This document shows, in pieces, positions 4,521 to 55,569 of a DNA stretch of 64,000 bases. The number at the start of each line of letters is the position of its first letter. Position 1 is the first letter of the stretch. Made by a program: the position numbers and the translations under genes. Source of the DNA: Pseudo-nitzschia pungens (taxonomy: Eukaryota > Bacillariophyta > Bacillariophyceae > Bacillariales > Bacillariaceae); assembly GCA_037355855.1 (NCBI GenBank), contig CM074758.1:5367001-5431000 (forward strand), in the 5' to 3' direction. The notes below the pieces were generated by a model. That model did no database searches, had not been told where the DNA came from, and saw only the letters and a list, made by a program, of their open reading frames with translations.

Positions 4521-5471
4521 GGTGATATCTTTTGCCTTGGCTTGGTGAGAGAAGAAGGAGAGATTATTTATTTGTGACCGCTGGTGGTAATTACGAAAGC
4601 ATATCTTTTCGTAATACGACGTATCATGTGCGTTATTATGAAGAGAAATTGCAAAAAATACAATAAGTATTTTGGATCAGAACTACAAAGCGATCTTTTC
4701 GGTTTCAACAAACAATAGTAATATTCCCGAAATAACGCGCTCGCCATCCAATCACAATCGACGACGGTGGATCTACAATAGCCCTTAATTGCAGATTTAC
4801 CATGATACTACGGCTTTTGACGTAGCGAATACTCTAGTAGTAAACCTTACGGAACTCGTACGTACTGTTTTTTGTTTCTGTACTAAGCTTACTAGCTCCG
4901 GTCAAAACGGGGCAATACGATGAACATTTTTGCACGTGCGACGATCGATTTTCAACCAATTCATATGACGATTCTTTTTGGGTGGAACTCTCCTCACCAA
5001 CAAACTCCATGCGCCTGGTTAGACACTATTACGGTAGATAGTAAATGGCTGATCGTATTGGTCTATCTTTCATTGGGACTCAAAGAAGAAGTTACTAGCT
5101 TTTACTGCTCTGCTGGAAGGTAGAAATGTGATTTTACTGGTTGAAAGAAGAACAACAACAAGAAGCAAGGCTTCCACCGCCGGTCATTTGAACCTCTGGA
5201 AAGTTTGCCCAGCAAGCTAGTAAGACAATAACAAAATCCTTTTCTGAATGTACTATAATTAGTAGTAGTGTGAACCAGAAGAGTGTTCTTGGTGACAATA
5301 CTTGTCTTCCAAATTGAGCCACTTTTTGCTCAACTGACACTGAAAACAGTGTGATAGTGGTAGTGGTAGTAGTAGTAGTAATTTGATTTTGTGTGTGTTT
5401 TTCTAACAGTGATTTTGATGCACACCTATTTAAAGTTCTGGTGGGTAGTAGTAGTACAAATTATACACCTT
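4521..5471. other. Intergenic, 5' side of the TULIP-NlpC gene
   Basis: This stretch is AT-rich with no convincing ORF. It should contain the promoter of the divergently placed minus-strand gene, but I recognise no element. A TAG/GTG trinucleotide run lies at about 5350-5385. The last two bases, TT, are the left target-site duplication of element 1. Confidence 0.4.
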
Positions 5472-5495
5472 CGTCCGAAAACTGGTTCGCGACCC
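5472..5495 (+). repeat. Element 1 left terminal inverted repeat
   Basis: This 24-bp sequence begins CGTCCGAAAACTGGTTCGCG. It matches the inverse of 20900-20923 and both ends of element 2. It is preceded by TT, the 2-bp target duplication. Confidence 0.92.
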
Positions 5496-6075
5496 CTCCC
5501 AAGAATTTATTTAGGGGGGTCGCGATTTCTCCCTGGCTCATTTTGACGTAGCTCCATTCGTAGCTCTCTCCCGATTTGCAACCCCCAATCGCGACCCAGT
5601 AACTACCTCAATTACGAGAAAAAAAAATAAAAAAAATAAAATTCAAACTCGACCCGATTTTTTTTAAGACTCGAATTTTTTCTTCAGTCACTTAATCAAA
5701 TTAATCAACATTTTAAAAAAAAAATATTTGTTTTCTCAAAATAATCCACCGCTTCCCCCAATTTTTTTTTTAATCTGACTCATTATTACCGACCCTACCA
5801 ACATTATATAATATGAGACTGTTGCAGAAATTCACTCCCAAAAATTGATTTCTCATCCCGACCCGAAGTATTTCCCATCACACCCCTCAAGAAATTCATC
5901 ACCAAAATCACAATTATTACCCGAATTACAGGAATCGCGACCCCCATGAAAAAAAATTTTGAAACACTATGATGCAAAATATAAGTCTTTCTTTTGATAA
6001 ATATTGATACTACTATAATAATTGTTTATTCTCTGTTCAGTTTTCTCACACACTCACACACAAATTTTGGTTCGA
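5496..6075. promoter_or_regulatory. Element 1 left subterminal region
   Basis: About 600 bp from the tip to just before the first gene is conserved, inverted, in element 2 at 55885-56347. Element 1 carries an extra stretch of about 80 bp. The region contains repeated TCGCGA/GTCGCGA motifs near the tip and again at about 5935. Such subterminal motifs are the known transposase-binding sites of CACTA elements; that role here is inferred. The inner part is A/T-rich and may hold the 3' end of the 6089-7746 transcript. Confidence 0.6.
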
Positions 6076-6088
6076 TCTCTAACAATTT

Positions 6089-7746
6089 TTAAAGACTGGC
6101 CAACGCGATCTCGTTACTGCCAGTAAAGTCCTCCTCATCTTCATTTACATCTAGCAAAGCTTGTAGCTCCGGACTAATGTATTCAGTAACTTCTTCCTCC
6201 TGCACCCAGTCCTCATCGCACGGACTGTTGTTGTTGTCATCGTTTTCACTCTCGCGATGGAGCCTCTCTCTCAATCTTTCCTCAAACTCTCTACCCGTTC
6301 TCGGATCTTTCCTCAGCACATCAATCTCCCTGCACAAGTTATTGAACAGTGCTAGACCTTCCTTCGACCATGATTGCTCCTCTCCACTGTATTGGTCACA
6401 AAATTTCTTTTTCTTCCTCCTTCTCACAATCCTTGCTCCGCCGTTCCTCTTTTGCTCAACATGATTCACCCAAACATCATACTCATTATGAATCATCATC
6501 AATGCAAATGCTTCATCGCTTTCTGTGAATATTTCACTCAGCAAACATGTCGTCTTTTTGCATCTGTAGCCCCTCTCTAATGGAGAGATGCTTGATAGAA
6601 TCCGAGTCACAAAGTAATAAAAATCATCATTTTCACTGTTGTTGTCATACCTTCTGTACCCTGGGTTGAGTCCCAGCTTCTTTCTAGTACTAGTTCCACT
6701 ACTACTAGTACTCTCCCGCATCACAATCTCCACTTTACCTGGAAAGGAATCTGGCACAATGCCTTCACGATCGCGTGTGTCCTCTAGTACGACGCGTACA
6801 CAGCAGTAGAAAGTGTTAGAGTAGCAGGGGAGGATATAGTACCATCAATCTCAACCAAGCAGTAATAGCAACCAATTTATTCACTTAGTAAGCACGTACC
6901 GAGAAAATGTTTTCTAGCCAAAGTTTGAGCATTGTGCCGCAGCGTGGAAAGACCCTTGTACACCAACCTTCTGTTAAACCCATAAAAAATTTCAAATGAA
7001 ATACCATGGGGTGGAACCACAGCTCGGGACGCAATCGCTTTCTTCAAAATTTTTTTGACCTTACTCTCATCCATGATAAACTTCAATTCACGAAACCAAC
7101 TATTTCTTATGTGCCGTGTCAACTGTGCTTCCAAACCCGCGTCTTTTTGATGTTTCTTAAGTGTATCCGATTGCGCCTTAGTTATCTCCAATTTTGCTTC
7201 ACTTACGGTTCGTACCATCTGTGGCTTTGGCTTCTTCCCTGTTGTAGTTGCCTCCAGCGTGGGCTCTTCTTTTTTTGTATCCTTCTGCAGTGTTGTCATA
7301 TCCCTCTCTAAAGAAGCTACTTTCTGCTGGCTCTCTTTTAGCTGTTGTAGCAATGCTTCGTATGTGGGTCTTGGTGTTGTTTTGGTACCGGTCGTAATCG
7401 GTCTTGGTGTAACAACACCCGGGGCGGCGGGGGGTTTGTTGTTTGGTGGTGTGGTACCAACGAAAACCGCGGTCGGGTTGTTCTTGGTTCTTTTATTTTT
7501 TTCATCAGCACCACCTGAGGTGGGTGGTAGTTTTCGACTTGTCTTTGGGTTCGATTTCGTATGGGTAATACTAGCAGTAGTATCCTCACCTGTATTAGCA
7601 TTGGATACAATTTTTCCACTTCGATTCTTTCTTGGTGCATTGCAATCTGCTTTCTTTTCTATTTGCTGATACTCATCATATACGGTAGGCATTTTTTCGG
7701 GCGTCGGAAGTAAAAAAAATACGAAGACAAAATTATGTGAAGCCAT
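6089..7746 (-). CDS. Element 1 accessory protein A, two exons, unknown function
   Basis: Exon 1 is 7746-6900 and exon 2 is 6783-6089 (1542 nt, 513 aa). They are separated by a 116-bp intron with a GTACGT donor and a CTAG acceptor, and the phases agree. A second ATG (MPTVYDEYQQIEKK, about 7692) is an alternative start. Residues about 30-150 are Thr/Pro/Lys-rich and low in complexity. Next comes a predicted helical stretch with LKESQQKVASLERDM (coiled-coil-like). A folded region with RHIRNSWFRELKFIMDE and EIFYGFNRRLVYKGL follows. The second exon has a basic patch RRRKKKKFC, then WSKEGLALFNNLCREI, and an acidic tail. I do not recognise the family. Its place inside the transposon suggests a DNA-binding or assembly partner of the transposase, by analogy with TnpA of CACTA elements; this is inference. 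Confidence 0.75.
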
Positions 7747-8470
7747 AAAATTGTGAACACAGTTTTTTCACTACTAACAAAAAACCTGTTAATCATTTTC
7801 CTCTCACCATCCCCGCAACTTGTAATGTCATACACTTCACTATGGAAATTGTAGGTGACGTGGCCAAATGTTTAAGAGGATTCCCACCCGCGCCATAATT
7901 TTTTTCTATCCACCTGTGCACATCTCTGTTCATTCTCTACTGTACCCATATTCACTACTGATTGCTGTATTGTTGGCTCTACTATTCCCCGCTGTACAGT
8001 AGGCAATAATTACTAATAGTACTACTACTACACAAGTATACCAGCAGCACCACCGGTTCAAGTATGAGTTGTACGAGGGATAGTACTGGCTGTGATAGAT
8101 TCACATATATAATGACAATATCCATAGCTATGACAAAAGGATCGTACAGTCTCTGTGGTACCCTTATGACCATAAGGGTCAGATGTGGTAGGATGGAGTC
8201 CTTCACAAGAATTATATTTTTCTTTGCCAATGGGCTAGATTACTATTTCTTTTGTCAGATTTTTCATCCTGCTTTATTCTATTTTATATTCTTGGACATA
8301 CCAGTAACCAAACAATCATCATTATCTTACATAGCCACTTGTGTATCCATGCATTTTTAACACTCTAAGACAAGAAAACATTGGTCAGTATGATGCCCGT
8401 TCCGGAAAAAAGCATATTTTGGGGTGGATTTTGGTCAACCGAGGATTTTTTTTACAAAGCAAGTGTCACA
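7747..8470. other. Element 1 spacer between gene A and the 181-bp satellite
   Basis: No credible ORF is present. A short TAC/TAG-rich stretch lies at about 8010-8045. The region must contain the promoter of gene A, but no specific motif stands out. Confidence 0.4.
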
Positions 8471-9085
8471 TCCAAAATATAAGTTGCAGCAACTTTATAC
8501 CCTTTTAGTATTCTAATAGATGCATATACTAACCATTATTCAGTTCAGAACACAAATAATCTAGGACAATTTCACCCATGCACAGGAAATATGCACATTC
8601 TGTGCTGTAATTTTGTGTACCCAGAATTTCTCTCAGAAATCAGAACTTACATCCGAAATATAATTGGTAGCAACTTTATACCCTTTTAGTATTCTAATTG
8701 ATGCATATACTGACCATTATTCACTGCGGAACACAAATAATCTAGGACAATTTCACCCATCCACAGGAAATATGCACACTCTGTGCTGTAGTTTTGTGTA
8801 CCCAGAATTTCTCTCAGAAATCAGAACTTACATCCGAAATATAATTGGTAGCAACTTTATACCCTTTTAGTATTCTAATTGATGCATATACTGACCATTA
8901 TTCAGTGCGGAACACAAATAATCTAGGACAATTTCACCCATGCACAGGAAATATGCACATTATGTGCTGTAATTTTGTGTACCCAGAATTTCTCTAAGAA
9001 ATCAGAACTTACATCCGAAATATAATTGGTAGCAACTTTATACCCTTTTAGTATTCTAATTGATGCATATACTGACCATTATTTA
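8471..9085. repeat. 181-bp tandem repeat, about 3.3 copies
   Basis: The landmark AACTTTATACCC recurs at 8491, 8672, 8853 and 9034, exactly 181 bp apart each time. The copies differ by only a few substitutions. It lies in element 1 just downstream of gene B, on the 3' side. Element 2 carries a repeat array of the same period at 53500-54720. Confidence 0.95.
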
Positions 9086-9235
9086 AAGTATTCAAAAAAA
9101 AGTATTCAAACATTGCGAATTATTCACAATTTATTAGATAAAATTACAAAATCACATTATACTATCTTTTATAATATTCCATTACACGCCCGTTGTCTTC
9201 CTTTTCTTGTTGGGTGTACCAAATTTTGCAGACTC

Positions 9236-11512
9236 CTACTTCTGTTGTGCCCTTGCTGGAGGCTTTCTCTCTGGCTTCGGTGGACCTGGTGGAGGATGCT
9301 TCTTCATATGAGGTGGAAGGTTTGACGTTGAGTTCTGTATCCTCTTCCCCTTTTTTTTCCTTTTCTTCTTTTTCACTCTGTCTTGTTCAGTCTCCTGTTC
9401 CTTGTTTTGAACACTATTACTGAGGCTTGCTACTTTCTTCTTCTCGTCCCCCCTTCTTTTCTGGTTGACGTTCTCGTGGGCGACTACAAAACAATTTTTC
9501 TTTCCTTCACGGACCGCACCATTCCCTTTCTTCTTGTAGCGTTGCTGCTCGCCCATCACAGCATTCACCGAGCGACGGAACAACCCTTTTTCTTCTGTTG
9601 TCATAGCTTTAGTCTCCTCCCGAACGATATCTTCCATCTGTTTCTCCGTCCACTTTTCTATTTCAGAGGGGGACACACTCTTGATGTCATCACGTTTGAA
9701 TTTCCCATTTGTTGCCGGCGCAGCATCACCGAAGTTCCTATCGAAATAATCTTCCACAGTTTGCGTGTGATATGGTCCTGTCTCTTTACATTCGTTCTCC
9801 TTAAACCAATTGCCAGCACTGATTAATTGATCACCAATTTGTTTTCTATATAGGTCAAATGCGGGATCGACAAGAAAGGTGAGTTTTGGTCCTTTCTTTC
9901 TCTGATAGTCCCAATCGGACTCAAAATTTGATTTAGCACTTGTTCTTGGAATGATGTCGTCGTAGGAACCCAAAAAGTTAATAAAGCCGGGACTTTTTTT
10001 TTGTTTATCCATATCTCCATAGGTGCTGCAAAACTGAAGTTCTTTTACGTTTTTTGCAACCGTTGTTAGTTTTCCTCTAACGCCTTTGTCTTTCATGTTC
10101 TTGGCATTTTTTGGCTGTGTACTTTGTTTGCGGCCGAGCCTGCGTTCAATCCGTACCTCGTCATTGTCATAGTCGATTTTTTTGTTTTTTTTTGGGTTTG
10201 TGGCTTCGTTCGCTTTAGGAACGTCGTCCTCCACAGCCCCGATGGCTTTGTTTTGGTTTGTGGCTTCGTTCGCTTTAGGCTCGTCGTCTTCCCCACCCCT
10301 GTCGTTGGCTTCGGCATCGTCGTCTTCGCTCGAATCATCGTCCTCGCTCAAAGAATTGTTGGTTTTTCGGTCATCGTTGCCCTTGGCCCCGACGGGAGGA
10401 TTACCTTTCTTTTCCTTTCGGTCCTTGTCTTCGTCATCGCTCGAATCGTCGTCTTCGCTTGAATCGTCGGCACCATGAGCCTCGAAAGAATTGTTGGTTT
10501 TGCGGTCGTCGTTGCCCTTGGCCCCGACGGGAGGATTAACTTTCTTTTCCTTTCGATCCTTGTCTTCGTCCTGGCTCGAATCGTCGTCTTCGCTTAAATC
10601 GTCGTCATTATCTTTCTTTTCGGTTCGGGCCTTGTCTTCTTCTTGGCTCGAATCGTCGACACCACTAGGACCGTCGTCTTTCCCACCCCCGATGTCTTTG
10701 TTTCGGTTTGTGTCTTCGTTCGCTTTAGGACCGTCGTCTTCCCCACCCCCATCTCTCGAATCGTCGTCATTATTTTCCTTTTCGTTTCGGTCCCTGTCTT
10801 CGTCCTCGCTGAAATCGTCGGCACCGCGAGCCCCGAACGAATTGTTGGTCTGGGCCGGAGGATGCCGAAGAACCTCCTGCAAAGTGATATTTGTTATCTC
10901 ACTTACCCAGTCTTGGTCATTGTCAGGATCGTCGGTTCCCTTAGCCCCGACGGAAGGATTAGTTTTATTTTTTGCGTTCTCTTCATTATCCGCCAAATCG
11001 TCGATTTCCTTAGCCCCGACGACAGGACTAATTTTATTTTGTTCATCATCTTCGCCTTCGTTATCTTTGGGATCGTCGGCTCCCTTAGCCCTGACGGGAG
11101 TAGGATTTGTTTGGGTTGTTTCGTCATTTTTCTCCCATGGGAAGTCAGGCATTCGCGGATGGGTGTCACGTTGCGATTCCCGGTCGTTGTCTTCATCCTC
11201 AGTGTCTTCATTCTCACTTTCCGAATCACTGTCTTCATTCTCACTTTCCGATTCTCCATCAGAAGATTCTTCAGTGTCGGTGGAATCTTGCTCAAGTTCC
11301 TCCTCATTCTCCGATACTGGTGGAGGTACATATTGGTCACGAGCAGGTACTGCTTCAGCACCATCATCACTGCTAGATGAATCCTCACGATAGTTTCGTT
11401 CGGGGGGTGAACGGGGTGATCTTCTCGGAGGATTTGTTCGTCGCCGTCTGGACCGATATGGATTTCCAGACCGACGAGATGGTGAATCTCTATTCCTTTT
11501 GTGCCTTGCCAT
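9236..11512 (-). CDS. Element 1 accessory protein B, long acidic repeat protein, unknown function
   Basis: A single exon of 758 aa starts at an ATG. The N-terminus (residues 1-40) is Arg/Ser-rich. Residues about 45-420 are extremely acidic and rich in Asp, Glu, Ser and Lys, with imperfect internal repeats that reuse units such as NPPVGAKGNDDRK and SSEDDDSSDDEDKDRKEKK. Residues about 455-640 look folded, with FINFLGSYDDIIPRTSAK, DWDYQRKKGPKLTFLVDPAF and TVEDYFDRNFGD. The C-terminus is strongly basic (KKKKRKKKGKR), then Pro-rich. The family is not recognised. The layout of an acidic disordered part, a folded core and a basic tail resembles nucleic-acid or chromatin-binding proteins, but this is only suggestive. 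No stops or frameshifts interrupt it, so the gene appears functional. Confidence 0.8.
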   Translation of the reverse strand: MARHKRNRDSPSRRSGNPYRSRRRRTNPPRRSPRSPPERNYREDSSSSDDGAEAVPARDQYVPPPVSENEEELEQDSTDTEESSDGESESENEDSDSESENEDTEDEDNDRESQRDTHPRMPDFPWEKNDETTQTNPTPVRAKGADDPKDNEGEDDEQNKISPVVGAKEIDDLADNEENAKNKTNPSVGAKGTDDPDNDQDWVSEITNITLQEVLRHPPAQTNNSFGARGADDFSEDEDRDRNEKENNDDDSRDGGGEDDGPKANEDTNRNKDIGGGKDDGPSGVDDSSQEEDKARTEKKDNDDDLSEDDDSSQDEDKDRKEKKVNPPVGAKGNDDRKTNNSFEAHGADDSSEDDDSSDDEDKDRKEKKGNPPVGAKGNDDRKTNNSLSEDDDSSEDDDAEANDRGGEDDEPKANEATNQNKAIGAVEDDVPKANEATNPKKNKKIDYDNDEVRIERRLGRKQSTQPKNAKNMKDKGVRGKLTTVAKNVKELQFCSTYGDMDKQKKSPGFINFLGSYDDIIPRTSAKSNFESDWDYQRKKGPKLTFLVDPAFDLYRKQIGDQLISAGNWFKENECKETGPYHTQTVEDYFDRNFGDAAPATNGKFKRDDIKSVSPSEIEKWTEKQMEDIVREETKAMTTEEKGLFRRSVNAVMGEQQRYKKKGNGAVREGKKNCFVVAHENVNQKRRGDEKKKVASLSNSVQNKEQETEQDRVKKKKRKKKGKRIQNSTSNLPPHMKKHPPPGPPKPERKPPARAQQK

Positions 11513-11869
11513 GATGTTTCACAGTGAACTGATGCTCCTGTGTGAAAATTGAAATTATGTTTGTTCATCTTAAAGGCTCCGAAGCATGAATTCATTAGGC
11601 AATTGCTTGATCGTAACAATTGATCTCGAAATGTTTAAAATGTAAACACGATGTGATCCTTTTTTTCACCGTGGAACAAAACAAGTTTGAACTGAATGTT
11701 TTGGAAACTGAAAAAAAACCGTTGTCCATAGGCATTACTAACAGTCAGGGGTCGGTCATGCGTCGTGTGCAAGGTTTTGTTTAGCGGGTAATAATAATGA
11801 TAGGAATAACGTATTGGTTTGCAAAGAAATCAATGTTACTCCCACCACTTTCTGTTCGCATCGTGTTAA

Positions 11870-12650
11870 AATGTATTGTAGTACAGCCTACTGCAAGCAA
11901 CATACAGTGGTCACTACTAGCAAATAATATTACAGCCTAGTAGTGCTAACAACATACAGTGGGCACTATTATGATGCTAGCAAATAATATTACAGCCTAG
12001 TAGTGCTAGCGACATACAGTGGGCACTATTATGATGCTAGCAAATAATATTACAGCCGAGTGCTAGCAAGCAACATAAAGTGGGCACTATTATGATGCTA
12101 GCAAATAATATTACAGCCGAGTGCTAGCAACATAGAGTGGGCAGTATTATGATGCTAGCAAATAATATTACAGCCTAGTAGTGCTAGCAACATACAGTGG
12201 GCACTATTACGATGCTAGCAAATAATATTACAGCCTAGTAGTGCTAGCAACATACAGTGGGCACTATTACGATGCTAGCAAATAATATTACAGCCTAGTA
12301 GTGCTAGCAACATGTAGTAGTGCTAGCAACATAGAGTGGGCAGTATTATGATGCTAGCAAATAATATTACAGCCTAGTAGTGCTAGCAACATAGAGTGGG
12401 CACTATTATGATGCTAGCAAATAATATTACAGCCGAGTGCTAGCAACACAGAGTGGGCAGTATTATGATGCTAGCAAATAATATTACAGCCTAGTAGTGC
12501 TAGCAACATACAGTGGGCACTATCGTAGTGCTAGCAACATACAGTGGGCACTATTACGATGCTAGCAAATAATATTACAGCCTAGTAGTGCTAGCAACAT
12601 AGAGTGGGCAGTATTATTACAGCCCGGTGCTAGTAAATAATGTTACAGCC
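11870..12650. repeat. 60-bp tandem repeat, about 12 copies
   Basis: The unit contains TGCTAGCAAATAATATTACAGCC and CATACAGTGGGCACTATTA-type segments and recurs every 60 bp (for example the line-exact copies at 11941-12000 and 12001-12060). Some copies are shortened to about 56 bp. It lies between genes B and C, upstream of the gene B start. Element 2 lacks it. Confidence 0.93.
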
Positions 12651-12679
12651 TAATGCCACTAGTATGATGCTCTCATACA

Positions 12680-13270
12680 TACCAACCCTGGACAACCAAC
12701 CACCACTTCGCGCCAAAAGATTTCTACCAGTACCGTACGTACAGTGTACACAGTACTGGAAACCTACACATCTCCTGCGTACAAGCTATACACACCAGTC
12801 ATTTTTTGCGCGTCATTTTTTCTTTCACTCAGCCTGTAGACTTAGTACCATAATGTAGGTACGTGGATGTCTTATTTTTCCTTACCTGTAAAAACAGTAC
12901 TGTCATGTACAGTATATAATGTTATTTTTTCTTGGCCTGTACAAACAGTACTGGCACGTACATACTTTATGTGCATTATTGCGGTGACTTTTGATGATCA
13001 TCACAAAATCGATTTTCCGCCCCACATCGCCCTCGTCAAAATTTTCATAATTTTCATTTTTGTTTCGGTGTTGGAATTTTCTGGCCGGTCCAGTTGAAAG
13101 TGAACCACGAGGCGCCTGGTACCATCTTGGAGAGACAAACGGCAAAGAAAGTATAGAACTGGCCACTCTTGAAATCTTTGTTACCGTTTTCTTTTGCTAT
13201 CAAGGTAGGGTGGGCTGCAGTCCTCGAATCACCTGGCTTACCCAGATATCTACGAGTACGACGCTACGGA
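12680..13270. other. Element 1 conserved internal block shared with element 2
   Basis: This non-coding block corresponds, inverted, to 52690-53270 in element 2. Shared landmarks are CCACTTCGCGCCAAAAGATTT, CAGCCTGTAGACTTAGTACC-like segments, ATCGATTTTCCGCCCCACAT, TTCTGGCCGGTCCAGTT and CTGGCTTACCCAGATAT. Its survival in a copy that has lost all genes suggests a cis-acting role or a recent common ancestor. Confidence 0.75.
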
Positions 13271-13299
13271 CAACAAATATCGATCGTAGGAGGGACGAC

Positions 13300-14190
13300 G
13301 ACAACAGGAGGTACGTACTTCACTTGAACCGATCGGGACGAAGAGGGAAGACGCAGAAAATCCTAACTAACGGTCTGTTGTTGATTTTGTTTTGTACATT
13401 CGGAATAGTGAGGGACGACGACGCCCATCGGAACGAGGAGGGACGACGACGCCCATCGGAACGAGGAGGGACGACGACGCCCATCGGAACGAGGAGGGAC
13501 GACGAAGCAAGGTACTTCACTTGAACCGATCGGGACGAAGAGGGACGACTCAGAAAATCGTAACTAATGGTCTGTTGTTGATTTTGTTTTGTACATTCGG
13601 AACAGTGAACGGCGACGACGATTGGAACGAGGAACGATCGGAAAAGGTATGCATAGTTTCCTAAAAATATTTTCATATTTTCTGCCTTTAAGATGTAGGT
13701 GAATCGTGTATTTTTGATTTAGACTCATTACTAGTACTAACATTTTTCACATCTATCCACCGCTTGTCGCCTAACACGATCGGAACAAAGAGCGACGACG
13801 ATTTCGACGAAGACGATTGTAGCGAAGAGCGACGACGATTTCAGGGTCGACGACAAAGACGATCGAAACATAGCACGACGACGATCTCAGGGACGACGAA
13901 GACGATCGAAGCGAAGAGGGAAGCGAAGGGCGACGACGATTTCGATCGTAGCGAAGAGCAACGACGATTTCAGGGACGACGACAAAGACGATCGAAACGT
14001 AGCACAACGACGATCTCAGGGACGACGAAGGGCGACGACGATTTCGATCGTAGCGAAGAGCGACGACGATTTTAGGGACGACGACAAAGACGATCGAAAC
14101 GTAGCACAACGACGATCTCAGGGACGACGAAGACGATCGAAGCGAAGAGCAACGACGATTTCAGGGACGACGAAGACGACCGAAGTGAAG
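13300..14190. repeat. GACGAC-rich degenerate repeats upstream of gene C
   Basis: Two direct copies of a roughly 100-bp unit lie at about 13311-13410 and 13510-13608; they share GAACCGATCGGGACGAAGAG and GGTCTGTTGTTGATTTTG. From 13790 to 14190 there are further units built on CGATCGAAGCGAAGAGCAACGACG-like text. The same kind of repeat returns after gene C (16381-17045) and in element 2 (55570-55875). Overlapping short ORFs here are side effects of the triplet-like composition. Confidence 0.8.
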
Positions 14191-14208
14191 AGCAACGACC
14201 CTCACATA

Positions 14209-16380
14209 ATGACACGATCCACATCTTCCAAGAGGAACAAAAAAATTGGGACCGACCTTGTTGAAAACAAGGAGATAAGGCAGGAGAGGTTGAGGAGAAA
14301 GGACGAGCAGAAAAGTAAGGACAATTCGTGCCGGTGCAATTTGGGTCGCATAGCGACGTTGACGCAGGCAAGTACAAGGGGGAAGAAGGGCACTAAGAAC
14401 TGTCGACGCACCTCTGATGGAATTGTTTGCACAAGGTGTAACACATTTTCTTGCAGAAAATGCTTGCAGTCTATTTTTAGACTCATAGAAAAAAGGACAG
14501 GCGGTAGCAGCGTCGATCTGCCTGATGGGATCAAACAAATGAAAAATGCTTTGATTGATAACCGGAGAGAGGTATCAGTTTGTCACGGCTGTATTTTTGT
14601 TGATCAAAGAGAGGAGGTACTGAGGTCCCATCGTCATTTCATTCATGTGGAATGCAGACAAGTGCAACTTAGGTTTGATGGTTACATCGTGTTACCAGAG
14701 TACAATGTGATAATCGACACCCCTCTTATCTCGGAGAATGTCATTGATTGCCATGGATTCGGGAAGGAGCCAAACCTTGCTGGAGTGAAACATTTTGTCG
14801 TGGGGTACAATCTTGCTAGAGAAGCTGCAGCAATGGATGTTAGACCCATCAAACTTACCAACAATTCCGACACGGTGAAAACAAGTGTGGTGAATGTCAT
14901 GTGTCCCGGGATTGCCAATCCAAATAAAAAAAGAATGTACAGGGTGCAACTCATCGTAGTACATGGTTCCCAGTGTACCAAAGGCATCAATGAAGTTCCG
15001 GAATATACAGCGGCATCACTCAGCAATTCCAGGGTGTTCTCAGTTCAGGATCGTGGAGAAGAATGTGACGTTACCATCATTGTTGGAAGTTTTTCTGGAT
15101 CACCTAAATTGGGACAGAAACAGAACCTGCTTTTGGCTCGGTTCTATCATGGAAGTGATGCTCTTCAAATGAAGCAGAAGGAGGTTCGATCGTTGTTTCT
15201 GGAAGTTCAGAAAATGACGAGAACTAACCACATAGAAAGGAGTCGTTCTGGGGGCAGCAGTGGAGTATACACTGGACCAACTCGAGCCCTCTTCCAGATG
15301 CTTGAAAACCCGAGTGTTACACCTAGGAAGGGAAATGCAACCTTCGTTGTTCCAGACGGGCACAAAATACGTGTGTTTTACATCAACAGAAGAGGACGTC
15401 CAATTCATTGGGCATATTCCAACCCTCAGTATGGAGGACAGATCGGGCCGATCACCAAGGATTTGTTTTCGCGATACAAATTCTTTCAGCCATTCACAGC
15501 GTCGAAGATAGTCAGTGCGTTACTTCTGAGAGAGCTGAGCAACATTGTTGTTGAAGGAATGGAAGGGGTGCTGAATGTGGTACCTCTTGCTGTTGCGCGA
15601 GAGTTGAGAAACCACAAGAAAGCCACGACCCGTGCAGGTTCGAATGACATTGGTGAAATTTTGTATCAGTTTTGTTCCCTTAATTCCACAACACTTGTGC
15701 AACACCCGGTCGGTCTTCACTATGACAAATTTGGTACAGACGAAGAAGGTACTGTTTTCAGTCTGGAGAACAAGGTTGGTTTTGCCACCAAAAACCCTGA
15801 ATTTCACAGAAAATACGGAATGGGAAGGGGAGGTCGTGGTCCAGAAACATTTGTGTTCTGTTTGCTTGATTGGGGCAAACACAGAAGAGCAAGACGTGCG
15901 GCCGAAGTTAATTTGCAGGCAGCGCAAGTAGAGCTCGCGCAACGACAGGCTGAGTGGCAAGCTGCGTTGGACCGTTGGATAGAAATCGATGAGAATCAAA
16001 ATGCCACTCAGGATGAAAGGTATGAGGCAGAGGCGGAAGAAATGGCAACCCAAGCAGCTCATGATGAAGCCGTGGCAGCCAGAGACGCTGCCCAAGTTGC
16101 CTTTGATCAAGCAGATGCGGCCGTTGCTGAGGCTGATGCTGGAGCCAATAATCCCCCTGGGAATGACGATGAGGATGCTGGTGATGCTGGTTCTGATGCG
16201 GCCGTTGATGGGGCTGATGCTGGAGCCAATAATCCCCCTGGGAATGACGATGAGAATGCTGGTGATGCTGGTTCTGATTCAGATTCAGATTCGGATGCGG
16301 AATTCTACGACTCCGATTTGGAACTTTCGGAATCAGACACGGAGGCAGAGGACGTTTCAGAGTTCAGGCGGAACGACTGA
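14209..16380 (+). CDS. Element 1 accessory protein C, Cys-rich N-terminus, acidic tail, unknown function
   Basis: This is a 723-aa ORF from the ATG at 14209; the frame is open a little further upstream but without an ATG. Residues about 40-120 hold a Cys cluster (CRC, NC, VCTRC, SCRKC, VCHGC) that looks like a zinc-binding module. Residues about 130-560 form a long unrecognised region with VPEYNVIIDTPLISENV, FVVPDGHKIRVFYINRRG and SALLLRELSNIVVEG. Residues about 575-645 are Ala/Glu/Gln-rich and probably coiled coil. The tail repeats GANNPPGNDDE twice and ends in an Asp/Ser run. It is the only element 1 gene on the plus strand, tail-to-tail with the transposase. A role in transposition is inferred from location alone. 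Confidence 0.82.
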   Translation: MTRSTSSKRNKKIGTDLVENKEIRQERLRRKDEQKSKDNSCRCNLGRIATLTQASTRGKKGTKNCRRTSDGIVCTRCNTFSCRKCLQSIFRLIEKRTGGSSVDLPDGIKQMKNALIDNRREVSVCHGCIFVDQREEVLRSHRHFIHVECRQVQLRFDGYIVLPEYNVIIDTPLISENVIDCHGFGKEPNLAGVKHFVVGYNLAREAAAMDVRPIKLTNNSDTVKTSVVNVMCPGIANPNKKRMYRVQLIVVHGSQCTKGINEVPEYTAASLSNSRVFSVQDRGEECDVTIIVGSFSGSPKLGQKQNLLLARFYHGSDALQMKQKEVRSLFLEVQKMTRTNHIERSRSGGSSGVYTGPTRALFQMLENPSVTPRKGNATFVVPDGHKIRVFYINRRGRPIHWAYSNPQYGGQIGPITKDLFSRYKFFQPFTASKIVSALLLRELSNIVVEGMEGVLNVVPLAVARELRNHKKATTRAGSNDIGEILYQFCSLNSTTLVQHPVGLHYDKFGTDEEGTVFSLENKVGFATKNPEFHRKYGMGRGGRGPETFVFCLLDWGKHRRARRAAEVNLQAAQVELAQRQAEWQAALDRWIEIDENQNATQDERYEAEAEEMATQAAHDEAVAARDAAQVAFDQADAAVAEADAGANNPPGNDDEDAGDAGSDAAVDGADAGANNPPGNDDENAGDAGSDSDSDSDAEFYDSDLELSESDTEAEDVSEFRRND

Positions 16381-17045
16381 TTCAAATAGAAGATCGAGGC
16401 AGAGGACGTTTCAGAGTTCGGGCGGAACGACTGATTCAGATAGAAGATCGAAAACGAAGACGATCGAAGCGAGGAGCAACGACGACTTCGAAGACAATCG
16501 AAGCGAAGAGCAACGACGACTTTAGGGAGGACGACGAAGAGAAAGGCTAGACGAAGAGGAAGGCCATCGGAGCGAAAAGCAACGACGATTTCTAGGACGA
16601 CGAAGACAATCAAATCGAAGAGCGACGACGATTTCAAGGACGAAGAGAAAGGCTATCAGAGCGAAAAGCAACGACGATTTTAGGAAGGACGACGAAGAGA
16701 AAGGCTAGACGAAGAGGAAGGCCATCAGAGCGAAAAGCAATGACGATTTCAGAGAGGACGACAAAGAGAAAGGCTAGACGAAGAGGAAGACCATCGGAGC
16801 GAAAAGCAACGACGATTTCTAGGACGACGAAGACAATCAAATCGAAGAGCGACGACGATTTCAAGGACGAAGAGGAAGGTTATCAGAGCGAAGAGCCACG
16901 ACGATTTTAGGAAGGACGACGAAGCGAAAGGCAATCGTAGCGAAGAGCAACGACGATTTCAATGACGACGAAGACAATCGAATTGAAGAGCGACGACGAG
17001 TTTAATGACGACGAAGACAATCGATTTCAATCACGACGGAAGCAA
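16381..17045. repeat. GACGACGA-type degenerate repeats downstream of gene C
   Basis: Imperfect units contain GAAAAGCAACGACGATTT, GGACGACGAAGAGAAAGG and CTAGACGAAGAGGAAGG. They fill the space between the stop codons of gene C and the transposase. They are close relatives of 13790-14190 and of 55570-55875 in element 2. Confidence 0.82.
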
Positions 17046-17095
17046 ATGATACAAAGATTTTATATTGTTTAGTTACCTGCCTAGTGTAGAATGGT

Positions 17096-20000
17096 TCATT
17101 CAGCAATGCCGGTGCTGTCTGATTCCTCTCGTTGTACAGGACAAGAGGAGTAGAGGCTCTCGTAGGTAGTATATGTCATAGAATTATTTCTCTTTTCAAA
17201 GAATGCGAGCCATTGCAATCGATTGTGAACAACCAACCACCGACCATTGTTTATTGGTTCTGCATTCTCGTCCAGTTCAGGAACAACTGCCAGTTCCGAA
17301 AGAATAGTGTCAGTGTTAAATAAATATAAAGTATTGTCGAGATAGCCACTTTTTACAAAGTGAGATGATGTAGACATTGGATCTTCTCTAAACTTTCTGA
17401 CAACCGCGTAGATGCCATCGGAATCGACATTGTATCCATTCACAGCCGATGTGGGTTGTTTCAAATCTGTCACGTGCAGAAAACACAGCATTTGACAGGG
17501 GATTTCAGTGTTATCGTCGACTGCAAACATTGCCCAGTCAAACCATACACTGTTAACTTGGCCTGAATCAGACCTGTATGAGGGGTGACATCGGAACAGG
17601 TAGTTGACGCGATTCACAGAATCCCATCTGTTGTGTTCGGTGAACCCAAATATGCTGGATGTGTCGTTGAGCAAAGGAAGGACAGAGTCACAAACAAAAT
17701 CTAGTACAATTGATGAATGAAATGGTTTGTTGTAGTTCCGTTGTCTGATCCATCTCATCGAACTTTTGGTTCCATCCAGAAAAATGGTGAAACGGGCACC
17801 ATACTGTGTAGGACGGGGGGAAATGACTTTAGGATCACCACCCACTTTCTTCAACTTGTAATGAGAGGTTGCGAGTCGAAGGAGAGATGCTTCTTCTTTC
17901 CGACGGGTTGTCTGATGGACTAAGGTTGCGGCATTTTGTTGAGTATTTTTGGACGGTGCTTTTATTTCAGTCTTGTGGTGACTTTCACTGTATGCAGAAT
18001 CGAAACCTAATGTTGGACCCCACAGACTGATGTACTTCGGAATGTGAAAGTAGAGGTGATTTTTGATAAGTTTTGTTCCCATTCCCTTCCTAAGGCAGGT
18101 GCCATTGATAGTGTTGAGGAAATGAATAATGGTTTTGGGAAGATTTTTGATGCACTTTGTGGTAGGACGGCCGTGTTTGAGAAATTCTTCCATAGAGATG
18201 ATTTGTTCGATAACATCAATGTGCTTCTTCACAAATGAGTTGTCCCTCAAAATTGCAATGCCGGATTCAGAAACCAATGTTAGAAGAATCGAAATCAGCA
18301 TACCACTGTAATCGTGCCCCTCTTTTTTAGTGACAGATAGAAGATTGGAGCTGAATTTAGTTCTGGGAAAGTCGCGATCCGACTGCCTTGAGAGAAGGGC
18401 TCCATATTTTTGAGAGACATGCCCAATTGTATTTACTGTGGAAACACCGGTCTTTAGGTGATCAGCATACGGGCATGGTATTGAACCCTTCATCAGTTGC
18501 TCCAGGGATTCTACCTCTCGTTTGGCACACCCGAGCTGGTGCATGTGGAGGCATTCACCGGGCGTGGCTAGGTGGATGTTGTTTACATTGGTACCAAAGT
18601 TGAGACTGTGGAATGCATTTCTGATTTGGTGGTGAGAAATATTGTTGAAATATTCCTTGGTGGTGGTGGCATCTGAGTCTGGAAATGTATGAAAATCTGA
18701 TGGGACCCAAAGAGAGGCTGTTTGTTGTGCTGATGGAATATTTATGTCCTTGGTGGAACAGTTACAGTGACGGCAAAGCTTTTGTACACCACCCGACCGG
18801 GAACCATATTTGCCACATAATTTATCATGCAGTTCTGTGTCACCGATGACATAGGCTATTGCAAATTTCATTTTGACTTGCCACAATTGGCCGGCATAAG
18901 GGAGAAAATCCCATTGGATGCCTTCCTGGGTGGACTCGCATGCTTCTTTGAAAGATCGGAGCGCCACTTCTAGGGCATTGTGCAGGTTTTGGATTGATTC
19001 TTTTGGAGATGGTTTTCTTGAATGGTGGATGCTCTCCAAATCTGAGTCAGGATGAAAATAGATTGTTGTCCATGCTTCCGGCCTTTTCCTGGTTTCGATG
19101 TTGAATATGCCTAGGGTCATGTTGAGTGGAGTCAGTGATAGTCTTCCGTGCGCATCCAAGCTAATTCCATCCATGTAAAAAATGATGGGAACAAGGATTT
19201 CAGAATTTTCTTCTATGCAGAGGGATCTCCAGGAATCCGACCACCATGATCCGTGGTGCAACTCAGTGATAGGACAAGAATCAGTTCGAACCGGGAAATG
19301 CTCTGGTGACAAGGGGGTATTGCTGTTGGGGAATGACAAATTTTCTTCCATCATTAAATCTGGGTTCGACAGAAGGGAATACAAAGCATCCAGAAAAGAG
19401 CGGACGTAGATTTGGGAGGGTTTGTTGTCGGGAAGCCAATTCACAATTTTGGGCTCAAATTTTGGTTCGGAAGATATGCCAAGATTTTTTTTTATTTCTT
19501 GGAAAATTGCGTCACGTTTTCTTGTTGGTGTAACCTTGAAATCGAAACCAGGAAGATTGTAGCTGTCTTTCGCCCAGTTGAAAATGGTTTGATAAGTGGA
19601 AAGAGGTAGCTTGTGTTGTGATATAATGTTGAGGAGGTTGATTTCAGCAATAAGTTCCGGACGGGGTGGGAACAGAGTGCGATTCCGGAATGTTTCCTCT
19701 CTTTCGTTTATGGAAATGGTGGTGCTTTTCATGATTTCGGAATCAGATATTTCGGTGTCAGAACTGGCATCAAAATTGTCAGGTACATCAACATCGGAAT
19801 CGATTGCATTCATTTGTTCCTCATTTTCAGCCATATGCGATTCGATTGCCTGTCTGTCCATGGGTGGGATGAGTACATTGGCGATCACTTGAGGATTGAG
19901 TGAGGTATGGATAGAAGTTGTTGCGGCGGTGTTCGTTTCGGCAAGGGAGGGGGGGATTTGTGGTCCATTCTGTGTCGTTGTCAGTCCATACTGTGATGGT

Positions 20001-20305
20001 GTGTGTCGGACCAAAGGGAGGGTGACTTCGGCTTTCGCAGAAGAAATAAAATCCATAAGATCGTTCTTAACATAATAAGTTCGGCAATCATTGTTGGAAT
20101 AGAGATGCCTGGAGAGGCCTTGAGATACGTATCGGTAGGTGTGAAAGTGGCTCGATTCTTGTTTGTATCCCTTGAAGGATTGCTGTGATTTTCTCCTTCT
20201 TCCGGAGGCAATGCAGTTGCGACAATGGAATGTCTTGGGTATTCTGGGCTCATTGGCAAAGTGCCTTGGGTCCGACGACGCTTTCGACAAGGAAGCTTTC
20301 GGCAT
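17096..20305 (-). CDS. Element 1 DDE transposase, CACTA/Plavaka-like
   Basis: An uninterrupted ORF of 1069 aa starts at ATG (MPKASLSKASS). The N-terminus has a zinc-finger-like pattern, CRNC ... GLSRHLYSNNDC (about residues 28-80). Residues about 365-410 carry the core PIIFYMDGISLDAHGRLSL, with the first likely catalytic Asp. It is followed by VIGDTELHDKLC (about 490), likely the second Asp, and CRHCNC, a Cys/His insert typical of CACTA/Plavaka-type transposases. Near 582 comes GECLHMHQLG, the region of the conserved HxxxLG segment. In the family these enzymes cut and paste the element at its TIRs. Assignment rests on motif recall, not on a search; KDZ-type transposases are the main alternative. 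No disabling change is seen, so this copy may be autonomous. Confidence 0.78.
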   Translation of the reverse strand: MPKASLSKASSDPRHFANEPRIPKTFHCRNCIASGRRRKSQQSFKGYKQESSHFHTYRYVSQGLSRHLYSNNDCRTYYVKNDLMDFISSAKAEVTLPLVRHTPSQYGLTTTQNGPQIPPSLAETNTAATTSIHTSLNPQVIANVLIPPMDRQAIESHMAENEEQMNAIDSDVDVPDNFDASSDTEISDSEIMKSTTISINEREETFRNRTLFPPRPELIAEINLLNIISQHKLPLSTYQTIFNWAKDSYNLPGFDFKVTPTRKRDAIFQEIKKNLGISSEPKFEPKIVNWLPDNKPSQIYVRSFLDALYSLLSNPDLMMEENLSFPNSNTPLSPEHFPVRTDSCPITELHHGSWWSDSWRSLCIEENSEILVPIIFYMDGISLDAHGRLSLTPLNMTLGIFNIETRKRPEAWTTIYFHPDSDLESIHHSRKPSPKESIQNLHNALEVALRSFKEACESTQEGIQWDFLPYAGQLWQVKMKFAIAYVIGDTELHDKLCGKYGSRSGGVQKLCRHCNCSTKDINIPSAQQTASLWVPSDFHTFPDSDATTTKEYFNNISHHQIRNAFHSLNFGTNVNNIHLATPGECLHMHQLGCAKREVESLEQLMKGSIPCPYADHLKTGVSTVNTIGHVSQKYGALLSRQSDRDFPRTKFSSNLLSVTKKEGHDYSGMLISILLTLVSESGIAILRDNSFVKKHIDVIEQIISMEEFLKHGRPTTKCIKNLPKTIIHFLNTINGTCLRKGMGTKLIKNHLYFHIPKYISLWGPTLGFDSAYSESHHKTEIKAPSKNTQQNAATLVHQTTRRKEEASLLRLATSHYKLKKVGGDPKVISPRPTQYGARFTIFLDGTKSSMRWIRQRNYNKPFHSSIVLDFVCDSVLPLLNDTSSIFGFTEHNRWDSVNRVNYLFRCHPSYRSDSGQVNSVWFDWAMFAVDDNTEIPCQMLCFLHVTDLKQPTSAVNGYNVDSDGIYAVVRKFREDPMSTSSHFVKSGYLDNTLYLFNTDTILSELAVVPELDENAEPINNGRWLVVHNRLQWLAFFEKRNNSMTYTTYESLYSSCPVQREESDSTGIAE

Positions 20306-20695
20306 GGTGGTGTGTGTTTTTGTGATACGATTCTTACGCCATGTCCCGGGATTCTTAGCTGGGGTACCGGTATGTGATGTGACACCACTGAAAAAAAAAG
20401 TTCACAAAGGTGCACGACGTAACACTTTGGTGTGATTGAGGTAAATTGGATTTAAAATTATTTGTTGTGTTGAGTCAAGTGTGTCAAATGTGGAAGCTTT
20501 CGGCATGGTGAAAATAAAATAAATTGAAATAATTGTTTGTTGTGATGCGAAGGGAGGATTCTTAGCTGGGGTACCGGTATGTTAGGTGACACCACTTAAA
20601 AAAAAAGTTTTACAACGGTGCGCGATGTAACTGTTGTGTGATTGAAGATGATCTGATTAAAAATTATTTGTTATATTGAGTCAAATGTGTCAAAT
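20292..20695. repeat. Tandem duplication (about 201 bp x 2) of the transposase start and upstream region
   Basis: Copy 1 (20292-20492) and copy 2 (20493-20695) both begin with GAAGCTTTCGGCATGGTG. Both contain TTCTTAGCTGGGGTACCGGT, an A-run, and end in GTCAAATGTGTCAAATGTG-like sequence. The duplication therefore repeats the transposase start codon context and its presumed promoter. Copies differ at many sites, so the event is not very recent. Confidence 0.88.
20402..20506 (-). CDS. Possible 34-aa upstream ORF created by the start-region duplication
   Basis: The second copy of the transposase start (CACCATGCCGAAAGCTTCC) lies 201 bp upstream of the first. It opens a 34-codon ORF that begins MPKAS, like the transposase, and then ends at a TGA. 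If transcription starts above it, this would be a decoy start that lowers transposase translation. Nothing shows that it is translated. Confidence 0.3.
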   Translation of the reverse strand: MPKASTFDTLDSTQQIILNPIYLNHTKVLRRAPL

Positions 20696-20699
20696 GTGT

Positions 20700-20899
20700 A
20701 AAATGGAATGAAAAGGTGACGAGGGACTGAATATCAGGGTCTAGATCAGAACATTTTCCAGAAACCGATGCAGAGATGGAGAAAAAAAAGGAATAAGGTT
20801 GAGAATAGTGGAAAAAAGGTTGTGAAATAAAAAATTGTGGTCGCGTTTTTCTGAGAAAAGTCGCGATTGGGTTGCGATCGGGTCGCGATGGGTCGCGAT
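20700..20899. promoter_or_regulatory. Element 1 right subterminal region with TCGCGA repeats
   Basis: Next to the right TIR, GGGTCGCGAT-type units are repeated about four times (20849-20899), with palindromic TCGCGA cores. The same region, inverted, forms the left end of element 2 (49971-50220) with high identity. These are the best candidates for transposase-binding sites. Confidence 0.65.
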
Positions 20900-20923
20900 G
20901 GGTCGCGAACCAGTTTTCGGACG
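20900..20923 (-). repeat. Element 1 right terminal inverted repeat
   Basis: This is the exact inverse of the 24-bp left TIR, ending ...CAGTTTTCGGACG. It is followed by TT, the target duplication. Confidence 0.92.
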
Positions 20924-22905
20924 TTTCTAAGCTAAATAATAATAATAATACAGTATTTAGGAATGGATACGGAAGAGTCATTGGTCCAGAAATTTCAACC
21001 AGAGGTAGAATATCCACTTCAACAGCTGTAGTATTTATTTTTAAATGCAGCTGAAACTGGGTTTAAGCTGATAGGTCCTAAGGCAAGCTTGGAGATATAC
21101 AGCAAGAGCAATGGCATGCAGATAAGAAGAAAAAAATGGGAAGCATTCAGAGTACACCTAATAGAATAAATTCTTTGACAATAGCATGAGAAATTAGAAT
21201 GGGTTTGATTGATGAATTGTTTGCAAAAATATTTGAGTCTTTCAACCATAAATAAATCCTGACCATCCCAAAAAGTTTCCGAAAAGGGGGTTGAGAACCA
21301 GATCTTGAATGGAAGGTGGAACAGCAACTGAAATATGGTGCAATAGCAACTGATATATTATGATGCAACAGCAACTGAAATGTAATCTGGTGGCAACCGA
21401 AAAGCAGTTTGGAGAAATATTTGGTAGCAGTCAGAATGGTACTAGTGGCTCTTAACCTCAATAATAGTGTAATATCCTCATGTGATTCTTAGACTGGTAG
21501 ATTATGACAAAAAAGACTGATGAATTATGAGAACACAGTGTGAGAAATTATGAGGACAGAGCCTGAAAAATATGAGAACAGAGCATGAGGAATTATGAGG
21601 ATGGAGTGTGAGAAATTAAGGGCATGGGGACTGAAAAAATAAGACTGCAGGGTGAAAATTTTCTTGAAGGTATGCACAAAAATAGAGGATCAAGAAGGTT
21701 TGAATATGGGTTGATATTTTAGATCCATTTGACCCAGGGTCAAAAGCATTTTAAGGGGGGGGACCAAAAACAGTTATCTAATGTAGTACTAGTCGTAGTA
21801 GTAGAAAGTAGTAGAACTAGTAGTAGTAGCTGCCCATACCATTATAGGAGGGAGGAAAGAGAAATATCATGATAGTACTACTAGTAAATAACAATGCAAT
21901 GAATGCGTTGATATTTGCTCGTCAGCAATCTTCGTAGATTTAATCGATCCGTAGATAAATCGTCTTGTACTCCTGCGTACTGGAAAATAGGGGAAAGCCC
22001 TAACAATAATAACACGTATATTCCTGGCAAATGGTGAGACTACAGCGGCACTGTTCAAGTTCTATTGCATACACTTAGTTACTACAAGGTACTTCCCTAG
22101 AGGTAGTACATCGGAATCAATCGTAAGGGGAGGGCATGATAGGCGTTTAATTTAGAATAAGAAAGAGTGAATACAGCAGGGAGCTGAGCGCAGCTCAGCT
22201 CTGTATCGTATCGTGACAGCGTTCCGATAACTCGTATAATAACAGAGCTCTGTAGCTCCGTTACTATTTTCTACGGGTAGCCCACGGAGTAGCGTAGCGT
22301 AACTCCGATTCGTAGCGTAGCTCCGCTTAATTAGATTCAAACGTGTGCTAGCGCGTTGGGTAACTGTCTGGGTCAGGTATCCGGTCATAGTACATATTAT
22401 ACACCAATGACCCGACCCCGGCGGTAGCATAGTATCTTAGCATGGTATCATGGTAGGTTAGCATCTCCAGTATCTCGTAGCATTAGCAACCCTAACCCTG
22501 TAGCATTTAGCTACACCATTACAGGTGCTATACTCGGGGTACGTACGATTGGTACAAATCGTACGCGACGGCCCTAGTAACTTCTGTTAGCACCCATACT
22601 AAGCAGGATAGGTCTGTTGCTAAGCCTGTTGCTAAGCCTGTTGCTAAGCCTGTTGCTAACCATTTAGCACACAGCTCAGCACTCAGCTCAGCACCTGTTA
22701 GTAGTCAGCTACTGGATGCTGCTGCCTGTAGCCCCAGTACCTCTCCTACACAGGAGCCTTAGCACAGATCATAGCACCCTGGATATCTTCATATGAAGTC
22801 AGTGCAAGTATGTCATCTGAAACATTGTGCCAGGAGGGATAGATGATCCTTCCTCACATACTAGGAGGCACCGCATGGCAGCACAACATTTTTTGACAAA
22901 GTACC
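20924..22905. other. Intergenic repeats and microsatellites; no gene
   Basis: Degenerate CAACTGAAATAT-type repeats lie at 21330-21410. GAATTATGAG / GTGAGAAATTATGAGG repeats lie at 21520-21640. A TAG-rich run lies at about 21785-21835. Inverted CAGCTC/GAGCTG-rich DNA lies at 22175-22330. A 12-bp minisatellite CTGTTGCTAAGC occurs four times at 22614-22661. ORFs here are short and lack domains. Confidence 0.5.
22614..22661. repeat. 12-bp minisatellite, four copies
   Basis: CTGTTGCTAAGC is repeated four times in tandem; the last copy ends ACC instead of AGC. It is followed by AGCTCAGCACTCAGCTCAGC. Confidence 0.9.
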
Positions 22906-34979: not shown

Positions 34980-35229
34980 TCAACCAACCTACCGTTCCTC
35001 CATCAATCCATCGATCGGTTCCTCCAACGACGGGAGTGCTGTTTCGATCGGCGTTGCCTCTTGGCGGTCGCGCTGGGGTTGGCGTCGTCCCGCGCTGTTC
35101 CTTCCGGGTTGCAGTCCGGGACACCAACCCGAGCGAGCGCGGTGAAACGCGGTGTGCGAATCGTCGTCGTTGTCGTCACCGTCCTGCTCGGTTTAGTTCC
35201 GGCGCTGCTCGCTGTTGCGTCGTCCGCCG

Positions 35230-49647: not shown

Positions 49648-49944
49648 GGTTGTTGCTGGGTACTGCTGGGTATGTGTAGGTATATATGTGTTGGTATATA
49701 TATATATAAGTGAGAAGGTATTGGTGGATACCTTAGACAACTTGTAGTTAAGGGAAGTAGTTGTCAAGTGTTGTCGGAGAACCTTAAGCTTGTTTGCTTA
49801 AGTATAAAAAATAAACTTAAAAAATAAATGACCAAAGGTATGAATGACCGAAGGTATGGATGATCGAAGGTTGGTATGATGTTGGTAACCTTAACCTTGG
49901 AAGGTATGGTATGGTACGTGTTGAGGTACCGTAAGGTTAAATGG
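49648..49944 (-). other. Gypsy-1 leader, part next to gag
   Basis: This non-coding leader lies between the gag start and the element 2 insertion. It has a TATATA run at 49691-49710. The rest of the leader is at 56350-56444 on the other side of element 2. Confidence 0.7.
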
Positions 49945-49946
49945 TA

Positions 49947-49970
49947 CGTCCGAAAACTGGTTCGCGACCC
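49947..49970 (+). repeat. Element 2 left TIR
   Basis: 24 bp beginning CGTCCGAAAACTGGTTCGCG, identical to the element 1 tips. It is followed by TCGCGA-rich subterminal repeats at 49971-50012. Confidence 0.92.
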
Positions 49971-52620: not shown

Positions 52621-52689
52621 TCGTCGTCGTCCGTCTCCGCACCAATCGGTTGTGATTTTCGTCTTCGTTGTTTTCAATATCAGTACGTC

Positions 52690-55550: not shown

Positions 55551-55569
55551 AAATCGTTTGAACCAAAAT

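Follow-up and report, generated by a model that had tools for sequence, protein, structure and literature searches.

A multi-copy DNA transposon of Pseudo-nitzschia pungens with a predicted RAG1-like transposase and partner genes that appear exchanged between families

What kind of mobile element occupies positions 5472-20923 of a 64,000-nucleotide stretch of the diatom Pseudo-nitzschia pungens (GenBank assembly GCA_037355855.1, contig CM074758.1, positions 5,367,001 to 5,431,000; this whole stretch is referred to as the window), and do its genes share one history? An earlier note had proposed that this segment, hereafter W, is a complete DNA transposon with exact 24-bp inverted ends, a TT duplication and open genes, and all of this could be confirmed. 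W encodes a DDE transposase, looks intact and is present in many copies, and its open genes suggest that it is autonomous. As to the history of these genes, the results very probably reflect a cut-and-paste transposon of the CMCT clade (EnSpm/Transib/RAG1/Plavaka). The genome holds at least 3 families of this kind, and recombination has very probably carried their genes, above all that of the orphan protein P3, from one element or family to another.

Ends and insertion sites

The tips of W, CGTCCGAAAACTGGTTCGCGACCC, were found exactly at 5472-5495 on the forward strand and at 20900-20923 on the reverse strand, and TT adjoins the element on either side (5470-5471 and 20924-20925). Across the genome (66.9 Mb, 28 contigs), 217 forward and 216 reverse copies of this tip were identified with up to 2 mismatches, compared to 0 for the reversed pattern used as a control; elements sharing these tips are referred to as the W family. 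DNA searches with the 2 ends of W, in which the best 40 of 246 and the best 40 of 229 candidates were scored, provide lower bounds. The tip search supports the borders assigned previously, as does a second element with identical tips, which had likewise been noted and lies at 49947-56347 (reverse strand) with TA at both sides.

Both flanks were read for 31 insertions: 20 tip pairs (neighbouring convergent tips chosen by eye from the first listed places among the 433), the 2 window elements, and 9 insertions, 2 of them nested inserts, from seven larger stretches. The stretches of copies C4_a and C5_a, each with a single visible end, were left out. The duplication was exactly 2 bp long in all 31 insertions and 3 bp long in 0/31, with TA being the duplicated dinucleotide in 11; when left and right flanks were taken from different elements, 150 of the 930 combinations agreed over 2 bp. 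Furthermore, when joined flanks were compared with the stretches read in this analysis, gap-free uninterrupted matches were obtained for 5 of the 31 insertions. These are the insert nested in C1_b (200/200 bases, 100%, in C1_a), the insert nested in C9_a (200 bases, 99.5%, in C7_a), L042/L043 (200 bases, 98.5%, in C9_a), C1_a (176 bases, 98.9%, in C4_a), and C1_b (200 bases, 92%, in L029). The remaining joined flanks gave partial, gapped or no matches among the stretches compared. The joined flanks of L042/L043 also match positions 28808-29007 of the window (91%), inside a Gypsy-like frame. The window encodes Gypsy-like retrotransposon polyproteins at 25823-29089 and 45106-49767, with reverse transcriptase, RNase H and integrase, and a relative of the former was struck by one W-family insertion.

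Since the near-identical copies W, C2_a and C6_a sit at different sites, their sequences suggest that W-family elements moved recently, which would make activity directly testable.

Histories of the transposase and its partner genes

The gene set of W consists of the transposase (1069 aa, 17096-20305, reverse strand), P45 (reverse strand), P2 (758 aa, 9236-11512, reverse strand), and P3 (723 aa, 14209-16380, forward strand), all four of which are open. While the long intact open reading frames (ORFs) are as described in the earlier note, this set results from the finding that 2 of them, of 289 and 222 aa, are exons of the single gene P45. Genome-wide, at least 43 transposase matches were found (the best 43 of 249 candidates), 29 of them full length and without a stop. 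For 32 of the 43, a convergent P3 match lies downstream within 12 kb, which uses 48 of the 65 listed P3 matches.

In fully read copies, the arms and the transposase are mostly 95-99% identical, compared to 57-100% for P3. Along the element, identity among the copies compared is mostly 95-99% in the left 2.5 kb and at 12-14.5 kb, 85-90% in the last kilobase of several copies, and ranges in the middle from 100% down to no nucleotide match; the first kilobase of C4_a matches none of the other copies compared. Between W and other subgroups, synonymous divergence (dS) is 0.060-0.096 for the transposase, while for P3 it amounts to 0.42 (C1_a), 0.71 (C7_a), and 1.58 (C4_a). The pattern is reversed for C9_a, with a dS of 0.087 for the transposase and 0.013 for P3. 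Across 25 pairs of long matches, P3 and transposase identities show no correlation (rho 0.09), although these values are rounded and span a narrow range.

Transposons with other tips extend this pattern. A sister family with the tips CGTCTGTYAACTGTTTTTCGA (22 forward, 19 reverse, control 0) is represented by one element read whole (C11:725957-744707), which is flanked by an AA duplication, contains no W tips with up to 4 mismatches, and carries P45, a transposase with one in-frame stop, P3, and P2 in a different order. The sister transposase is 55-56% identical to that of W, with synonymous sites being saturated, and yet its P3 is 93.6% identical to the P3 of the W-family copy C7_a (dS 0.148). 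The block shared by these 2 elements reaches from 62 bp before the P3 start codon through the last base of the stop codon. Further P3 matches lie on C5, C7, and C12 within long intervals bounded by sister tips; since they may be due to nested elements, they were not counted as proof.

A third family has the tips CGTCTGATAACTG and CGTCTAATAACTG (65 forward and 58 reverse, both together), and its transposases are about 75% identical to that of the sister family; of 53 listed matches, 16 are of this kind and near full length, and 15 of these 16 lack stops. In one of its elements, B, the P2-P3 block is colinear with that of the W-family copy C8_a (83.8% over a 7.2-kb alignment). The set of P45, P2, P3, and transposase recurs across 3 families with different ends and gene order. 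Another third-family element, A, is 93.4% identical to B over 5406 bp, and no P2 or P3 match was found in 9 kb of it. We considered whether third-family elements can lack the P2-P3 block, but do not claim this, because A was partly read and a frame opens at the comparable place in L087. In the latter, a third-family element without a P3 match, this other frame is found where P3 might lie (L087:3946-4461).

Phylogenetic trees point in the same direction. In the transposase tree, the ten W-family sequences form one clade (100/100), and a grouping of C7_a with the sister element is rejected by the approximately unbiased (AU) test (p-AU 0.0016). In the P3 tree, C7_a groups with the sister element (100/100), and a seven-member clade (100/100) contains C4_a and C8_a along with B. 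A P3 tree in which the 11 W-family sequences are constrained to group apart from the sister and B is worse by 763 log units (p-AU 3.4e-57). The trees reject a co-descent of P3 and transposase, and these comparisons suggest that distinct transposon families have exchanged their partner genes.

The same similarities could in principle have arisen in other ways. It is unlikely, but deserves some weight, that the P3 types were acquired independently, through horizontal transfer with elements from other species, and that their similarity between families reflects the donor genomes; transposase relatives do occur among diatom gene models as well as on unnamed contigs. However, P3 would still have to move between families in some genome, no P3 relative was found among the candidates scored, and elements that otherwise differ share a P3 block the size of a gene. 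We see little room for the proposal that W-family elements are old and diverged, with gene conversion keeping their ends, P45, and transposase alike and the P2-P3 centre escaping it. The mostly 95-99% identical arms with varying centres are compatible with such homogenisation, and many tips belong to copies able to act as conversion donors. Yet it cannot account for the 93.6% identity of the C7_a P3 to that of a different family's element with a saturated transposase, nor for the 84% identical P2-P3 block shared with the third family, and it is disfavoured by the trees of both genes. Homogenisation may well act in addition to exchange.

Gene products, satellites and a proposed mechanism

The transposase of W is predicted to fold like RAG1. 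In one run, in which Foldseek candidates were compared with the structure model by VIA-align, the best solved-structure matches were Transib, ProtoRAG (BbRAGL), and RAG1, at sequence identities of 7-12%. The fold check suggested for 17096-20305 thus returned a predicted RAG1-like core at residues ~215-822. An alignment of 60 transposase relatives leads us to propose a catalytic triad of D379 (codon 19169-19171; D in 59/60, a gap in 1), D489 (18839-18841; 60/60), and E774 (17984-17986; 59/60), all on the reverse strand. C511 (60/60), C514 (59/60), H750 (60/60), and H754 (60/60) are similarly conserved, and the distances separating D, D, C(2)C, H, and E are presumably close to those in RAG1. Residues 830-1022 of the model resemble a BAH fold and match chains of ZMET2, ORC1, DNMT1, and BAHCC1, some of which are so named in the results while the rest we take to contain BAH domains. 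Since sequence profiles gave no support for a BAH domain, it is treated as a lead only. Among W-family copies, the ratio of nonsynonymous to synonymous divergence (dN/dS) of the transposase is 0.09-0.32. Named transposase relatives are diatom gene models, from Cylindrotheca fusiformis and from "Psemu1", which we take to be Pseudo-nitzschia multiseries, and others lie on unnamed contigs; this agrees with the diatom family proposed initially.

P45 is encoded by the spliced ORFs 6877-7746 (289 aa) and 6089-6757 (222 aa). Exon 1 (6900-7692), with Met19 of the first ORF as its likely start, has three relatives among the Psemu1 models (32-39% identity), and exon 2 (6089-6762) is 35-46% identical to relatives in the two other families. 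The 137-bp intron between them (6763-6899, GTACGT..GTGAAG) has GT..AG borders, differs in length among copies, and is interrupted by an inserted element in C1_b; one relative holds both parts consecutively within a single frame. The Psemu1 relative 43790 is numbered next to the transposase model 43789, which suggests, without proving, that the 2 are neighbours. No profile above the cut-off was found for P45. In C4_a (L013), exon 2 is W-like up to residue 57 and about 45% identical beyond it, a break that might reflect an additional, intragenic exchange. A 498-aa frame resembling P45 (L078:1852-3345, C8:477351-478844) lies on a 7.7-kb sister-tip element with a TA duplication (L078:1028-8704), in which no transposase, P2, or P3 match was found; it is one of 13 listed P45-like frames of 495-498 aa without stops. 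At C4:6301987-6309118, the first exon of P45 is present in three tandem copies about 3.1 kb apart, with one stop each.

P2 is of acidic and basic low complexity, and no profile matched it; its residues ~445-650 recur in other copies and families. P3, whose start at 14209 is conserved among copies, has a Cys-rich N-terminus and a helical, acidic C-terminus. It is an orphan: no protein relative was found at E 0.001 (8000 candidates sharing most words scored), no profile scored above the cut-off, and no solved-structure sequence match was worth keeping. A dioxygenase reading based on the H-x-D triplet HYD504-506 was dropped, because no later histidine is invariant or nearly so. Between P3 types, dN/dS is 0.12-0.29 where dS is finite, low values as for the transposase; dS was not used for C6_a, whose truncated P3 frame continues into unrelated sequence, and C5_a, which has a stop.

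By their sequences, P2, P3, and P45 are conserved partner genes of the element, although any function of P2 or P3 would be conjectural. Of the claim that W carries three extra unrecognised proteins, the absence of a known family held up, but they represent a recurrent, exchanged set and not one-off passengers. DNA transposons do capture genes, and the 3 proteins match no known family above cut-off, so captured host genes as mere passengers had to be considered. This is very improbable given that the same set occurs in 3 families with different ends and gene order, that P3 frames are kept with the low dN/dS between types, and that P45 has relatives in the Psemu1 models, one of them numbered beside a transposase model. 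A chance inverted repeat around unrelated genes is refuted by the counts, with 433 tips against a control of 0 and 2-bp duplications at 31/31 pairs.

The internal satellites described previously are tandem arrays of 181-, 60-, and 43-46-bp units, none of which was found in the window outside its 2 elements. The 181-bp satellite (8468-9083) lies between P45 and P2 and recurs in other families and in the second element of the window, and the 60-bp satellite (11917-12616) between P2 and P3. The 43-46-bp satellite directly precedes (13805-14199) and follows (16454-17024) P3, on the forward strand in both cases, and flanks P3 on both sides in like orientation in W, C7_a, and C1_a. The second window element is non-autonomous: its sequence (49947-56347) gave no gene match beyond a stretch of 41 residues that resembles a transposase relative (E 5e-4). 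The satellites in its interior, one of 181 bp and another of 42 bp that is rich in GGGGGGACAGCAAGCAG, also occur in the sister-family element L078:1028-8704, and geneless elements therefore also look composite. Elsewhere in the window, a 584-aa frame (62086-63840) has strong DUF285 repeats (E 1.2e-152), and a very long tandem-repeat region (35226-40445) includes a 1602-aa frame of 48-54-bp and 150-bp units.

We propose that the transposase recognises the 24-bp CGTCCG tips together with subterminal TCGCGAC repeats. Candidate binding sites lie in the left (5472-5600, forward strand) and right (20860-20923, reverse strand) subterminal regions. The first 300 bp contain TCGCGAC twice and GTCGCGA once, and the right region contains TCGCGAC four times within 64 bp, compared to 0 occurrences of TCGCGAC and 1 of GTCGCGA in 11.4 kb of the interior. 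With P45 probably as its partner in the reaction, the RAG1-like DDE active site would excise the element, and insertion with a 2-bp staggered cut would produce the 2-bp duplications. Recombination would transfer genes, P3 above all, alone or with P2, among elements and families, and the shared satellites on either side of these genes could perhaps act as crossover sites.

Several observations weigh against parts of this reading. No uninterrupted site was found for W itself among the stretches compared; the search for empty sites proposed in the earlier note succeeded for other insertions of the family. The best profile match of the transposase, Pfam Plavaka PF18759, scores 25.0 bits, just below its curated cut-off of 26.3. 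The groups tested on the P3 tree were named after the mosaic pattern had been seen. The predicted P3 model is unusable (predicted local distance difference test score of 38), and within P3 types dN/dS is 0.53-1.15 (W, C2_a, C9_a), where constraint is not evident because few changes exist; nor is it evident for the P45 exons, with noisy values of up to 0.84. The link between satellites and exchange is positional only: neither C8_a nor B showed the 43-bp unit around P3, and it occurs only once in the sister element, upstream of P3. Finally, C7_a has a W-like P2 but another P3, and there is therefore no single fixed cassette.

Relation to known transposons

In the available part of PMC12730594, the CMCT clade is characterised by a DDE transposase with C(2)C and H residues between the second D and the last E. 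The transposase relatives of W show these residues, and 2-bp duplications were found in 31/31 insertions. The common CA..TG ends were not found, as W terminates in CGTCC..GGACG; this does not exclude membership, because the same source restricts these ends to "most cases" (PMC12730594). Plavaka elements, described there from fungi, have TGT..ACA (A) or CATCA..TGATG (B) termini, neither of which is present in W, but share with it duplications of 2 bp, the C(2)C and H(3-4)H residues, and the ability to carry partner genes (PMC12730594). W further differs from Plavaka in its diatom-named relatives and its three partner proteins, and no TET/JBP profile match was found in P45, P2, or P3 at the thresholds used. 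PF18759 scored above its cut-off in 5 of 7 relatives picked among those marked Plavaka and in 0 of 9 picked among those not so marked.

EnSpm/CACTA (CMC) elements resemble W in their DDE transposase with C(2)C and H, and they have subterminal repeats and partner genes as well, but W lacks CAC..GTG ends and 3-bp duplications (0/31). Transib, ProtoRAG, and RAG1 are closest in the structure comparison, from which W differs by its 2-bp duplications (5 bp in Transib/RAG1-type elements), the additional C-terminal BAH-like fold, and other partner genes. W is thus nearest to Plavaka by profile, below the cut-off, and nearest to RAG1/Transib by solved-structure comparison. The CACTA/Plavaka-like assignment made at the outset stands for the CMCT-type DDE transposase and the 2-bp duplications, but not for the ends, which are neither CACTA nor of the published Plavaka types. 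Because the CMCT features tested other than CA..TG ends are present and the Plavaka and EnSpm end types are absent, W and its related families are placed, by sequence and predicted structure, within the CMCT clade as a new group. Kyakuja/Zisupton (KDZ) elements, for which the accessible text gives duplications of 7-8 bp, do not agree with the 2 bp of the W family (PMC12730594). In another diatom, Cyclotella cryptica, EnSpm is reported among the superfamilies (PMC7466962).

As in W, a partner gene has passed between transposon lineages in the TET/JBP-carrying fungal DNA transposons covered in the portion seen of PMC12730594. The fungal gene is an enzyme of a known kind, unlike the orphan P3, and P3 is shared as an ORF-sized or 7-kb block with a divergence low enough to map the edges. 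Among the papers listed on diatom, Plavaka/CACTA/EnSpm, mosaic, or BAH-bearing DNA transposons and on Pseudo-nitzschia transposases, none looked comparable.

Phages and plasmids are well known to evolve as mosaics, gene by gene. Among eukaryotic cut-and-paste elements, the nearest case found is that of the fungal TET/JBP genes (PMC12730594). It is possible, though tentative, that the RAG1/Transib-type transposons of diatoms form a recombining population and evolve like tailed phages, with a mobility core of transposase, P45, and tips and interchangeable partner genes, P3 above all, that would benefit the element, for instance by countering silencing by the host. A BAH reader in the transposase could steer insertion or help it to act in silenced chromatin. 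Since related families with open, partly near-identical copies coexist in one genome, the units and edges of exchange can be mapped. The W group would add a RAG1-like lineage with a different partner set, and bears on how RAG/Transib-type recombinases gain helpers and chromatin readers.

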